Below, piece by piece: positions 49,791 through 55,407 of a DNA stretch of 64,000 nucleotides. The stretch's first letter is position 1. Every line of letters begins with the position of its first letter. Under the pieces are notes generated by a model. It worked only from the letters and a program-made list of their open reading frames with translations, ran no database searches and was not told where the DNA came from. Made by a program: the position numbers and the translations under genes. Source of the DNA: Kocuria rosea (GTDB lineage Bacteria > Actinomycetota > Actinomycetes > Actinomycetales > Micrococcaceae); contig NZ_CP035103.1 in NCBI RefSeq assembly GCF_006094695.1, forward strand, positions 1,364,001 to 1,428,000, read 5' to 3'.

Positions 49791-50995
49791 GCGCCGAGAA
49801 CGCCCTGTCGCGGGCCCGCGCGCACGCGCCGGAGCACTACGACGCCGTCGTCCTCTCGTCCTTCGGCGGGCCGGAGGGGCAGGACGACGTCCTGCCGTTC
49901 CTGCGCAACGTCACGAAGGGCCGCGGCATCCCCGACGAGCGGCTGGAGGAGGTGGCCACCCACTACCGGGCCAACGGCGGCGTCAGCCCCATCAACGCCC
50001 AGAACCGCGCGCTGCGCTCCGCCCTCGAGGCCGAGCTGCTCGGCCGGGGCCTGAGCGTGCCCGTGCTGTGGGCCAACCGGAACTGGGCGCCCTACGTGGC
50101 GGACGTGGTGCGGGAGTGCCACGCGCGCGGGCTGCGCAAGCTCCTGGTGCTCGCCACCAGCGCCTACTCCAGCTACTCCGGCTGCCGCCAGTACCGCGAG
50201 GACTACGGCGTGGCGCTCGAGGAGCTCGGCCTCGCGGACGAGATGCAGGTCGACAAGGTCCACCAGTACTACGACTCCGAGGGCTTCGTGCAGCCCTTCG
50301 TCGAGGGCCTCCGGGAGGGCCTCGCGCAGGTGCGCGACCGGCTCGGCGCCGACGGCGGCAGGATCGCGGTCCTGTTCTGCACCCACTCCATCCCCACGAC
50401 CGACGCCGAGGCCTCCGGGCCGGCGCGGATGGACTTCGAGGAGGGCTCCGCCTACGTCGCCCAGCACCTGGCCGTGGCCCGGACCGTGCTGGAGCGCGTG
50501 GGGGCGGAGGAGCTCGGGGACCACACCTGGGACCTCGTCTACCAGTCCCGCTCCGGGCCGCCGCAGGTGCCGTGGCTCGAGCCGGACGTCAACGACGCCC
50601 TCGAGGAGCTCGCCGAGCGCGGTGTCGCCGGCGTGGTCCTCGTGCCGCTGGGCTTCGTCTCCGACCACATGGAGGTCAAGTGGGACCTCGACACGGAGGC
50701 CCTGGAGACCTGCGAACGGCTCGGCCTGCCGGCCGTGCGCACCCCCACCGCGGGCACCCACCCGGCGTTCGTGGCCGGGCTCGCAGACCTCGTGGAGCAG
50801 CGCGTCGCCGGGCGCGCCGCCCCGCCGCGGCTCTCCGCGTGCGCCGAGGGCACGTGGTTCGACGACTGCGCCCCGGACTGCTGCGTCAAGGTGCTGCGCG
50901 GCGCCACCGGGCCCCGTCCGACCATCGCGCAGCGCCCCCAGGGCGAGCCCCTCCCGGTCGCCCTCGACGAGGCGGGGGAGGTGCGGTGGTCGTGA
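49787..50995 (+). CDS. hemH: Coproporphyrin III ferrochelatase (CpfC/HemH)
   Basis: A 402-residue ferrochelatase inserting Fe2+ into coproporphyrin [30 protein letters not shown] at the N-terminus, [14 protein letters not shown] with the catalytic His (about residues 203-216), and [23 protein letters not shown] with the conserved Glu and His. The C-terminal part contains several Cys ([19 protein letters not shown]), the typical cluster of actinobacterial ferrochelatases that ligates a 2Fe-2S centre. ATG at 49787 overlaps the chdC stop. Its stop overlaps the hemC start. Confidence 0.94.
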
Positions 50996-51945
50996 CGGCC
51001 GCGGCGCAGGGGCTCCCGGTGCTGCGGGTCGGGACCCGCGGCTCCCGGCTCGCGCTCACCCAGACCACCACGGCGGCCAGGGCCGTCGCGGCGGCGGGCG
51101 GGCTGGAGCCGGAGCTCGTCACGATCCGCACCGAGGGCGACGTCCTGACCGGGCCCCTGTCCCAGATGGGCGGCACCGGGGTCTTCGCCACGGCCCTGCG
51201 GGCCGCGCTGCTGGCGGGATCCGTGGACCTGGCCGTGCACTCCCTCAAGGACCTGCCCACCGCTCCCGTGCCGGGCCTCGAGGTCGCCGCGGTGCCGGAG
51301 CGGGAGGACCCCCGGGACGCGCTGTGCGCCCGCGACGGGCTGACCCTCGCCGGTCTGCCCGCCGGCGCGAAGGTCGGCACCGGCTCCCCGCGGCGCGCGG
51401 CGCAGGTGCGCGCGGCGCGCCCGGACCTGGAGATCGTCGACATCCGCGGCAACGTGGGCACCCGGCTGGGGCGGGTGGCCCCCGGCGACCTCGACGCCGT
51501 GGTGCTCGCCGCCTCCGGGCTGCGGCGGCTCGGGCTGGAGGACGCGATCACCGAGCTGATCGACCCGTCCGTCATGCTCCCCGCCCCCGGGCAGGGCGCC
51601 CTGGCCCTCGAGTGCCGCACCGAGGACGCCTCGGGGGACACCCCGCTCGCCGCCGCCCTCGCCGCGGTGGACCACCTGGAGACCCGCCTGGCCGTGACCG
51701 CGGAACGGGCGCTGCTGACCCGGCTCGAGGCCGGCTGCGCGGCCCCCGTGGGCACCTTCGCGCGGATCGAGGACGGCGTGCTCGTGCTCGACGTCGTCGT
51801 GGCCGACCCGGACGGCAGCCGGGTCATGCGCCGCAGCGGCCGCACCGCGGAGCGCGGCGTCGACGACGCCCGCGCCCTCGGCCACCGGCTGGGCGACGAG
51901 CTGCTCGCCGACGGCGCCGGCCGGCTGGCCCGGTTGACGCTCTGA
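50992..51945 (+). CDS. hemC: Hydroxymethylbilane synthase (porphobilinogen deaminase)
   Basis: A 317-residue enzyme polymerising four porphobilinogens into hydroxymethylbilane. [15 protein letters not shown] at the N-terminus, [34 protein letters not shown], and [11 protein letters not shown], whose Cys carries the dipyrromethane cofactor. Start: GTG at 50992 overlaps the hemH TGA (GTGA, as elsewhere in this operon); an in-frame GTG at 50986 is also possible given GGAGG at 50977-50981. Followed after 5 bases by hemD-hemB. Confidence 0.95.
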
Positions 51946-51950
51946 GACCC

Positions 51951-54038
51951 GTGCCGCACCCCGGCCCCGCCGACCGCTCCGCCGACCCGGCCGCCGCCCT
52001 GCGCGGGGCCAGGGTCGTCGTGACCCGTTCCGCCGACCGGGCCAGGGAGCTCGTGGCGCTGCTGCACGGGCACGGGGCCCGGGTCCGGCTCGCCCCGCTG
52101 CTCGAGGCCACCCTCCCCGGGGACACCGGTCCCGTGGCCGCCCTGCTGGACCGGGCGGCGGACCCGGGGGCCGCCGCCGGGTCCTGGCTGGTGGTCACCT
52201 CGGTCACCACCGTCCGGGCCCTGCGCGCGGTCGCGGGGGAGCCGTCCGGCACGGCACTCGGCGACCGGTTCGCGGCGGCCCGGCGGGCCGGCCTGCGCGT
52301 GGCCGCGGTGGGGGACGCCACGGCCGCGGCCCTCACGGCGGCCGGGCTGCGGCCGGACCTCGTGCCCGGCGCGGTGCACTCGGCCGCCGGGCTGCTCGCC
52401 GACTGGCCGCCGGAGCCGGCTCCCGGCACCGTCCTGCTGCCGCTCTCCGCCCGGGCCCGGCCCACCCTCGAGACCGGTCTGACCGCGCGGGGGTACGGGG
52501 TGCTGACGGCCACGGCCTACGAGACCGTGCCCTGGCCGGCGCCCGCGCCCCTCGTGCGGCGGGCCGCGGCCCAGGGGGAGGCCGACGGCACGGACGACGA
52601 CGCGGTCGACGGCACGGACGACGACACGGACCGCGGCGTGGACGGGCGCGTGGCCGAGCTCCACCGGTCCGACCTGCTGCAGGTCCTGGCCGCGGGCGAG
52701 GCCGACGCCGTGGTGCTCACGGCGCCGTCCCACCTCGCCGAGCTCGTGCGCGACGACCCCGCCGTCCTGGCCGGCACCGTCCTCGTGGCCATCGGCGAGC
52801 CGACGAGACGCGCCGCCGCCGAGCGCGGCCTGCCGTCCGTGGCCGCGTCCCTGCCCACCCCGGAGGGGATCCGCGACGCCCTCGCCCGGGCCCTCACCGC
52901 ACCCGCGGCCTCCCGGGCGGCCGCGGGGGCGCCCGCCCCGACCCCGACGGCGGCGGCTCCGCCGCCGGCCGCACCGACCACACCGATCCCGACGACACCG
53001 ATCCCTGCGACCGAGGAGACGAACTCCGTGACCCACCGAATTCCCCGCTACGACCTGGTGTCCCGCCCCCGCCGCCTGCGCACCACCCCGGCCGTGCGCC
53101 GGCTCGCCGCGCAGACCAGGGTCCATCCGTCCGACCTCATCCTGCCCGTGTTCGTCCGCGAGGGCCTCGCCGAGCCCGCCCCGCTCGGCTCCATGCCGGG
53201 GGTCGTCCAGCACTCCATGGACTCGCTCCGGCGCGCCGCCGCCGAGGCCGTGGCCAAGGGCCTCCGCGGGTTCATGATCTTCGGCGTGCCCGCCGAGCGG
53301 GACCCCGAGGGCAGCGCCGGGTGCGACCCCGAGGGCATCCTGAACCGGGCGCTGCGCGCCGTGCGCGCCGAGGTCGGCGACGACCTCGTCGTCATGGCCG
53401 ACCTGTGCCTGGACGAGTTCACCGACCACGGGCACTGCGGCGTCCTGGCCGAGGACGGGACCGTGGACAACGACGCGACCCTGGAGATCTACGGCCGGAT
53501 GGCCGTGGCCCAGGCCGAGGCGGGCGCCCACGTGCTCGGGCCCTCCGGCATGATGGACGGCCAGGTCGGCGTGATCCGCTCCGCCCTCGACGAGGCCGGG
53601 CACCCCGACGTCGCCGTCCTGGCCTACTCCGCGAAGTACTCCTCCGCGTTCTACGGCCCGTTCCGCGAGGCCGTGGACTCCCAGCTGCAGGGCGACCGCC
53701 GCAGCTACCAGATGGACCCCGCCAACCGCCGGGAGGCGCTGCACGAGCTGCAGCTGGACCTGGACGAGGGCGCCGACATGGTCATGGTCAAACCGGCCAT
53801 GAGCTACCTCGACATCCTCCGCGACGTGGCCGAGGTCTCCCCGGTGCCCGTCTCCGCGTACCAGATCTCCGGCGAGTACGCCATGATCGAGGCCGCCGCC
53901 GCCAACGGCTGGATCGACCGCCGGGCCGCGATCCAGGAGTCCGTGCTGTCCATCCGCCGCGCGGGCGCCGACTCCGTGCTCACCTACTTCGCCGTCGAGC
54001 TCGCGGACTGGTTCCGCGAGGAGAACGGCCTCTCCTGA
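51951..54038 (+). CDS. hemDB: Uroporphyrinogen-III synthase fused to porphobilinogen synthase (HemD-HemB)
   Basis: One open frame of 695 codons. Residues 1-305 are Hem[53 protein letters not shown] and [19 protein letters not shown], the bilobed fold that cyclises hydroxymethylbilane. An Asp-rich insert with the GTDDD repeat splits the domain near 215. Residues about 315-358 are a Pro/Thr/Ala linker ([10 protein letters not shown]). From V360 follows a complete HemB. No stop codon separates the two. An internal GTG at 53028 with GAGGAG 9 bases before it could also start free HemB, so one or two products may form. Start GTG at 51951. Gene fusions of HemD are known with other partners; a HemD-HemB join is unusual. 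Confidence 0.85.
52584..52625 (+). repeat. 18-bp direct repeat inside hemD
   Basis: Two identical 18-base units at 52584-52601 and 52608-52625 encode the GTDDD-type acidic insert of HemD. In-frame expansion likely. Confidence 0.7.
53028..54038 (+). CDS. hemB: Possible free porphobilinogen synthase (HemB) from an internal start
   Basis: The in-frame GTG at 53028 gives the usual 336-residue HemB N-terminus ([19 protein letters not shown]), with GAGGAG upstream. HemB joins two 5-aminolevulinates. Schiff-base Lys in [14 protein letters not shown], second Lys in [16 protein letters not shown], metal loop [16 protein letters not shown] where the middle Cys of zinc enzymes is Asp, so the metal set is the mixed or Mg-type seen in many bacteria. 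Whether this protein exists apart from the HemD-HemB fusion cannot be told from sequence. Confidence 0.55.
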
Positions 54039-54090: not shown

Positions 54091-55407
54091 ATGAGCGTTT
54101 CCCAGGAACTCTTCGACCGCGCGCGCAAGGTCATGCCCGGCGGGGTCAACTCCCCGGTGCGGGCCTTCGCGTCCGTGGGCGGCACCCCGCCCTTCATCAC
54201 CGCGGCCAAGGGCCCGTACCTCACCGACGTCGACGGCCGCGAGTACGTCGACCTCGTCAGCTCGTGGGGGCCCGCCCTCGTCGGGCACTCCCACCCGGCC
54301 GTCATCGAGGCCGTGCACGAGGCCGTGGAGCGCGGCCTGTCCTTCGGGGCCACGACCCGCGGGGAGACCGAGCTGGCCGAACTCGTGGTCGAGCGGATCG
54401 GCGCGATCGACGAGCTGCGCATGGTCTCGACCGGGACCGAGGCGGCCATGACCGCGATCCGCCTGGCGCGCGGCGTGACCGGCCGGGACCTCGTCGTGAA
54501 GTTCGCCGGGTGCTACCACGGGCACGTGGACTCCCTGCTGTCCGAGGCGGGCTCCGGCGTGGCGACCCTCGCCCTGCCCGGCTCCGCCGGGGTCACCGCG
54601 GCCACCGCGGCCGAGACCCTGGTGCTGCCCTACAACGACCTCGCCGCCGTGGAGGAGGCCTTCGCCGCCCACCCCGGCCGGATCGCCGCCGTCATCACCG
54701 AGGGCGCGCCCGCCAACATGGGTGTGGTCACCCCCGGCGAGGGCTTCAACGCGGGCCTGCGCCGGCTCACGCGCGAGCACGGGGCGCTGATGATCTTCGA
54801 CGAGGTGCTGACCGGGTTCCGCGTGCACGAGGCCGGCTACTGGGGTCTCACCGCCGCGGGCGAGGACGGCTGGGAGCCCGACCTGTTCATGTTCGGGAAG
54901 GTCATCGGCGGCGGGCTGCCGGTCGCCGGCGTGGGCGGGCGGGCCGCGGTCATGAACCACCTGGCGCCCCTCGGGCCCGTGTACCAGGCCGGAACCCTGT
55001 CCGGGAACCCCGTGGCGATGGCCGCGGGCGCGGCGACCCTGCGCACCGCGGACCGGATCGCCTACCAGACCGTCGACCGGCGCTCGGCGCAGCTGCAGGA
55101 GGCGGTGCGCGCGGCGCTGACCGAGGCCGGGGTCGACCACTCGATCCAGTCGGCCGGCAACCTGTTCTCGGTGGCCTTCGGCACCTCCGCCGCCGGCGTG
55201 CACGACTACGCGCAGGCCAAGGCGCAGGAGACGTTCCGCTACCCGGCGTTCTTCCACGCGATGCTCGACCAGGGCGTCTACCTGCCCCCGTCGGTGTTCG
55301 AGGCGTGGTTCCTCTCCGCCGCGCACGACGACGCCGCGATGGACCGGATCGTCTCCGCCCTGCCGGCCGCGGCGCGCGCGGCCGCCGAGGCCCGGCCGGC
55401 CGCCTGA
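54091..55407 (+). CDS. hemL: Glutamate-1-semialdehyde 2,1-aminomutase
   Basis: A 438-residue PLP enzyme making 5-aminolevulinate from glutamate-1-semialdehyde. [21 protein letters not shown] at the N-terminus; [30 protein letters not shown]; and [18 protein letters not shown] with the PLP Lys (about residue 270). Full length. ATG at 54091 after GGAAGGAAG. It is the last gene of the heme operon, supplying its first soluble intermediate together with the divergent hemA. Convergent with the exonuclease gene. Confidence 0.96.

Follow-up and report, generated by a model that had tools for sequence, protein, structure and literature searches.

A HemD-HemB fusion gene in the heme operon of Kocuria rosea, most likely derived from an overlapping gene pair by gain of one spacer base

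Background

Joining of HemD to another enzyme of the tetrapyrrole pathway is known from the CobA-HemD (uroporphyrinogen-III methyltransferase/synthase) fusions, which are described for archaea, with counts for bacteria, in PMC11237513. In case of CobA-HemD, the partner methyltransferase acts right after HemD, whereas HemB, the partner in Kocuria, acts two steps earlier. Operons of the hemAXCDBL type have the same local order (C-D-B-L) as the locus studied here, but contain hemD and hemB as adjacent, separate genes, unlike the Kocuria fusion. The hemAXCDBL operon of B. subtilis is named in PMC10991733 and a hemC-hemD-hemB construct is treated in PMC10776470; the excerpt of PMC3711429 contains neither the HemD nor the HemB enzyme name.

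A further point of comparison is provided by gene pairs overlapping as NTGA, a strikingly enriched overlap type according to PMC12548453, which also treats translational coupling between closely spaced genes. Such a junction is also found between hemD and hemB in several unfused sister species, whereas in the genome studied here the overlap appears to have become an in-frame fusion. HemD-HemB open reading frames with the same domain order and a long linker occur in Kocuria aegyptia (P0007) and Pengzhenrongella frigida (P0022), the latter belonging to another genus and having a different linker. No paper describing the HemD-HemB fusion, these two included, was found among the open-licence papers listed; a description elsewhere is possible. 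Fused HemD-HemB proteins are already present in sequence databases. What is most useful in the present case is the way in which a single base can lead from overlap to fusion, rather than the enzyme pairing.

The fused reading frame and its genomic context

The analysed stretch of DNA (the window) comprises 64,000 nucleotides of the K. rosea genome (GCF_006094695.1; contig NZ_CP035103.1, positions 1,364,001–1,428,000), and all coordinates below refer to it. According to the list of open reading frames and their translation, an open frame extends on the + strand from a GTG at 51951 to a TGA at 54036–54038 (51951–54038), comprising 695 codons without internal stop. As claimed in a preceding sequence-only reading, this frame accommodates a complete HemD, a linker and a complete HemB: (i) the hemD part (uroporphyrinogen-III synthase; 51951–52892, residues 1–314), (ii) a Pro/Thr/Ala-rich linker (52893–53027, residues 315–359), and (iii) hemB (porphobilinogen synthase; 53028–54038, 336 codons plus stop), all on the + strand. 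The fusion of 695 amino acids has a calculated mass of 72.1 kDa, versus 36.4 kDa for a protein begun at GTG 53028. The fusion query matches a single place in the 3.95-Mb genome (E <= 0.001), which consists of 1 contig.

The N-terminal part matches the Pfam domain HEM4 (1.1e-34, 120 bits versus a cut-off of 27.5) in two stretches, the best covering residues 33–212, but remains below the NCBIfam equivalog cut-off, the best match (PRK05928) reaching 45.1 of the required 275 bits. It is therefore taken to be a sequence-divergent HemD, named from its Pfam domain and its position after hemC. An Asp/Thr/Gly-rich, repeat-like insert in HemD (52566–52643, +; residues 206–231) varies among relatives and is gapped or replaced in most alignment rows. 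The HemB part matches Pfam ALAD at residues 371–687 (1.5e-136, 455.1 bits versus a cut-off of 24.6; profile positions 2–317 of 317) and scores above the cut-off of one NCBIfam model (PRK09283.1, 469.8 versus 297 bits) and below that of a second (PRK13384.1, 382.7 versus 507 bits). K562 and K614, which we take to be the active-site lysines of HemB, are invariant columns in a 21-row alignment. The metal-site motif (residues 484–497; 53400–53441) contains both Cys and Asp and is presumably intermediate between the zinc and magnesium types.

In the AlphaFold2 monomer model, the HemD and HemB parts are mostly confident, pLDDT falling under 50 at residues 1–10 and 206–231 only in case of HemD, and over residues 323–379 in the linker region. 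Together with this low-confidence linker, the overall pTM of 0.47 means that no fixed arrangement of HemD and HemB is predicted. All 24 PDB sequence matches and all 50 Foldseek matches listed are porphobilinogen synthases; since no solved HemD is among them, the N-terminal half is assigned to HemD from its Pfam match and from gene order.

The frames upstream of the fusion are presumably hemE, hemY, hemQ, hemH and hemC, and the one downstream hemL; family searches among the frames of the heme cluster covered HemD and HemB only. Both direct neighbours, hemC (50992–51945, +; stop TGA at 51943–51945) and hemL (54091–55407, +; coordinates from the list of open reading frames), were named from their sequences. 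The hemH stop and the hemC GTG overlap as GTGA (50992–50995), i.e., the same stop/start type as at the hemD/hemB junction of several unfused relatives.

The 45 residues of the linker include TPIPT and TPIPA, encoded by a 15-nt unit of 5 codons that occurs twice (52980–53009, +; copies beginning at 52980 and 52995). Neither length nor sequence of the linker is conserved among the aligned relatives. Similar Pro/Thr tails end the unfused HemDs of G039, P0242, P0245 and P0246, which shows the linker to be the end of HemD rather than an acquisition of the fusion. Several candidate lines of evidence from the linker were discarded. Its open frame does not argue against chance, since 90.9 % of 5000 dinucleotide-preserving shuffles of the linker (81 % GC) are free of in-frame stops as well; stops account for 0.7–1.0 % of all codons when the + strand of the window is read in its three frames, and the fused frame itself remains open upstream through hemC, back to 50622. 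Third-position GC (0.87 in the linker versus 0.98–0.99 in hemD and hemB) is not decisive, and frame-keeping length changes are no proof of selection in view of the 15-nt repeat unit and of a tail that is coding in unfused HemDs, too. Thus, the missing stop by itself is worth almost nothing, and the case rests on recurrence in relatives and on comparison of the junctions.

The hemD/hemB junction

The conserved internal hemB start codon (GTG, 53028–53030, +) is preceded by a Shine-Dalgarno-like GAGGAG (53013–53018, +) at a distance of 9 nt (53019–53027, +), precisely as reported from the sequence-only reading. In the fused frame this hexamer encodes Glu-Glu, and an AGGAG site precedes hemB in relatives. 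Two of the 46 in-frame internal start codons have an upstream Shine-Dalgarno core, and AGGAG precedes the one at 53028 only. Conservation of this site is not taken to prove internal initiation, because in DNA so rich in GC a conserved GAGGAG looks the same as a conserved Glu-Glu. An out-of-frame TGA at 53029–53031 (+) is probably what is left of the stop codon by which hemD ends in overlapping unfused relatives.

The junctions of 21 Kocuria genomes and of K. palustris (22 rows in total) were compared, with the spacer counted from the core AGGAG/GGAGG to the hemB start, which is ATG or GTG in every row. The spacer measures 9 nt in all seven fused genomes and 8 nt in seven unfused genomes with an NTGA overlap (G039, G011, G002, G043, G003, G006 and G042), in which a TGA overlapping the hemB start ends hemD. 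This overlap is directly seen in six of the seven; G002 was read from short sequence only, its hemB contig being cut short and lacking a hemD match, with the hemB frame closing 7 codons upstream. K. palustris has an overlapping junction, too, its spacer being scored as 7 nt by the script with GGAGG as core. No overlap is present in the remaining seven unfused genomes (G004, G005, G009, G010, G012, G040 and G045), where the hemD stop lies upstream of the hemB start and spacers range from 6 to 9 nt, the length of 9 nt recurring in G004, G009 and G012; hence, judging from these junctions, the contrast of 8 versus 9 nt holds for overlapping versus fused junctions and not for all unfused ones.

The clearest pair is formed by G039, which is the nearest among the unfused genomes read (90.8 % identity in HemB), with CAGGAG-ACGACCCC-GTGA, and the fused G008 with GAGGAG-ACGACTCCC-GTG; in longer form, the junctions read CAGGAGACGACCCC-GTGACC (unfused) versus GAGGAGACGACTCCC-GTGACC (fused). 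In fused genomes as well as in the overlaps of G039 and of the G011 type, the Shine-Dalgarno site (GAG GAG or CAG GAG) sits in the hemD frame. Lengthening of the 8-nt spacer by one base thus aligns the hemB start with the hemD frame, in which the TGA is then no longer read as a stop. By this comparison, one spacer base appears to separate the four-base stop/start overlap from the fusion, with the hemB Shine-Dalgarno site and start remaining in place.

Within the fused group of six genomes, 15 of the 18 nucleotides before the GTG are invariant, compared to 0 of 12 from -60 to -48. In all 22 rows, A is the first base of the second hemB codon. NTGA overlaps force this A (PMC12548453), but as the non-overlapping rows share it, the A alone is no proof of a former overlap.

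Distribution of fused and unfused genes

The genus survey comprised 21 genomes drawn from a larger group, i.e., the window genome and 20 others. Seven of them carry the fusion, namely G000, G038, G041, G007, G008 and G044 with rosea-type linkers (the contig of G044 ends within hemB) and the distant species G001 with a different junction; six congeners besides the window genome are accordingly fused, five of these having the same kind of junction. The junction of G001 (locus L108) is very short (LIEALEEQRT-M) and has the 9-nt spacer of the other fused genomes. The remaining 14 genomes (G002–G006, G009–G012, G039, G040, G042, G043 and G045) are unfused; in G005 (L105), HemD matches fall into two frames, and hemD may be broken or contain a sequence error. 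The sequence-only reading had regarded a stop in close relatives as speaking against a fusion; such a stop is present in some (G039 and the K. flava protein P0246 as well as P0242 and P0245) and missing from other relatives.

Outside the genus, 19 genomes of other genera of the family were searched. None of the 18 loci read in both directions is fused, 13 having hemD with its own stop beside hemB and 5 lacking a hemD match on the locus; in the 19th genome (G020), hemD and hemB were matched separately. Likewise, among the best 80 of 408 relative-encoding stretches in public genome records, which include Kocuria tytonis, K. marina and K. palustris, none of the 72 with an upstream hemD match is fused; in three (L028, L030 and L079) of the 8 loci without such a match, the contig ends before hemD would be visible. 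L004 was rejected as a fused locus because of a stop 81 nt before the equivalent of the hemB start (shorter HemD query). On plasmids, none of 661 matching records has one place covering 80 % of the query.

Among public proteins, the window's own-type cluster has 90 member sequences. P0003–P0010 are fused. P0246 of K. flava as well as P0242 and P0245 lack the fusion, their HemDs ending in QETTP or EETTP. P0241 and P0244 are unfused HemDs with other tails, and these entries could carry sequence errors. A stand-alone HemB of the window type (P0122, 336 aa, 4 contigs) may reflect annotation of an internal start, a broken upstream frame or truly unfused strains. A database HemD of the window type (P0243) shifts frame after AAAQG, beside a run of G (about 52570–52580); frame breaks of this type may explain some stand-alone HemB entries such as P0122.

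Phylogeny and direction of change

Gene trees of hemC + hemB were calculated for 19 of the 21 genus genomes (G002 and G010 were left out, as hemC is absent from their hemB contigs), K. tytonis, K. palustris and two outgroups. G001 falls into a subclade separate from the rosea-type genomes with 100 % support, so that by parsimony at least two fusions are required in the genus. Accordingly placed outside the rosea-type group, the G001 fusion is regarded as an independent event in a second lineage, as far as the trees indicate. The six rosea-type fused genomes form a clade with 86 % support in the hemC + hemB tree, but with 22 % on hemC alone. A second hemC + hemB tree leaves an open fork at G039 and implies three state changes, G001 included, and constraining the six fused genomes to one clade lowers the log-likelihood by 1.10 units (AU p 0.299). 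The trees thus fit G039 outside or inside the fused group, and loss of the fusion in G039 is possible. A 24-row HemD tree (G001 absent) has weak inner support and requires 4 changes if every row is kept; omission of P0241 and P0244 lowers this number to 2, and further omission of P0242 and P0245 to 1. A change from overlap to fusion is the presumed direction. With fused and unfused states mixed among close relatives, the fused state is evolutionarily labile.

Origin, products and alternative explanations

Taken together, the data are best explained by a real HemD-HemB fusion gene in the heme operon, most likely arisen from gain of one spacer base in an NTGA pair (probability about 0.8). The ancestral hemD and hemB would have overlapped as NTGA, and one base would have been gained between Shine-Dalgarno site and start of hemB. 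This would have placed the hemB start in frame with hemD and removed the hemD stop from that frame, without affecting the ribosome-binding site and start of hemB. For want of a stop after hemD, ribosomes finishing this part must run on into hemB, so that translation of hemD gives the fusion, a 72-kDa protein of two domains joined by a flexible linker. The possibility of free HemB from the internal GAGGAG/GTG, raised in the sequence-only reading, gains weight from the homology of this site to the hemB start of unfused relatives. The retained signals at 53028 would probably also yield free 36-kDa HemB, and both forms are the likely products. HemB is an octamer, which would then be mixed from fused and free subunits.

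In the overlapping form, translation of HemB is probably already coupled to that of HemD. Translational coupling is frequent among gene pairs overlapping as NTGA (PMC12548453). The HemB:HemD dosage may thus be much the same in the fused and the overlapping state, which would account for the differences among lineages; the change from overlap to fusion was probably close to neutral for dosage. One genus shows both sides of the step from a stop/start overlap to a fused bifunctional enzyme, with the probable old stop codon and the ribosome-binding site still visible at the fusion junction, and the origin of enzyme fusions becomes directly testable by addition or removal of one base. At the same time, caution is indicated, as annotated fusions in GC-rich genomes may be labile and not functionally selected.

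An assembly or sequencing artefact, i.e., a stop or base missing at the junction, would require no more than a single-base indel, and the database copy P0243 indeed has a broken HemD frame; this reading is nevertheless strongly disfavoured, since five other rosea-type genomes and the public proteins P0002–P0010 share the fused frame, most of them with different linkers, and the genome containing the window was assembled into a single 3.95-Mb contig. It is also unlikely that the gene is fused while its protein scarcely accumulates, with HemB coming mainly from GTG 53028 and the linker being cut or the fusion degraded. Conservation of the internal Shine-Dalgarno site and GTG, the low-confidence Pro/Thr linker in the model and the stand-alone HemB entry P0122 would agree with such a scenario; however, any HemD must first be made as fusion for want of its own stop, and we know of no protease site in the linker.

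The sequence-only reading had suggested that the fusion serves to tie steps of the pathway together. Hydroxymethylbilane cyclises spontaneously, and HemD tethered to the HemB octamer could concentrate the enzymes flanking HemC and help hydroxymethylbilane to reach HemD before cyclising. The fused state is common to six diverged genomes with variable linkers, and HemD-HemB fusions recur elsewhere in Actinobacteria: at least 51 proteins among 120 matches listed, window type included, possess both Pfam domains (e.g., in Pengzhenrongella frigida and Kocuria aegyptia), even if some metagenome entries may be sequence errors. On the other hand, HemB and HemD catalyse non-consecutive steps, close relatives mix both states (with 4, 2 or 1 changes on the HemD tree depending on the rows kept), the linker is conserved neither in length nor in sequence, and adjacent co-directional genes fuse easily in GC-rich DNA. 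An adaptive origin is therefore considered quite improbable; channelling or tethering by the fusion is possible, but finds no support in the sequence comparison, close relatives being unfused and the linker not being fusion-specific.

Beyond the preferred origin by spacer gain, one may speculate that the spacer acts as an evolutionary one-base switch providing two HemB forms per mRNA and mixed octamers with a set number of HemD, with lineages switching both ways under selection for heme flux. Doubtful as this extension is, it would mean that a single spacer base can turn a pair of coupled genes into a bifunctional enzyme and back.

Judged by Pfam domains, several further architectures are represented by P0040, P0067, P0088, P0093, P0096 and P0097, i.e., CobA-HemD-HemB, HemC-HemB, HemB with a class-III aminotransferase (HemL-like) and HemC-HemD-HemB.
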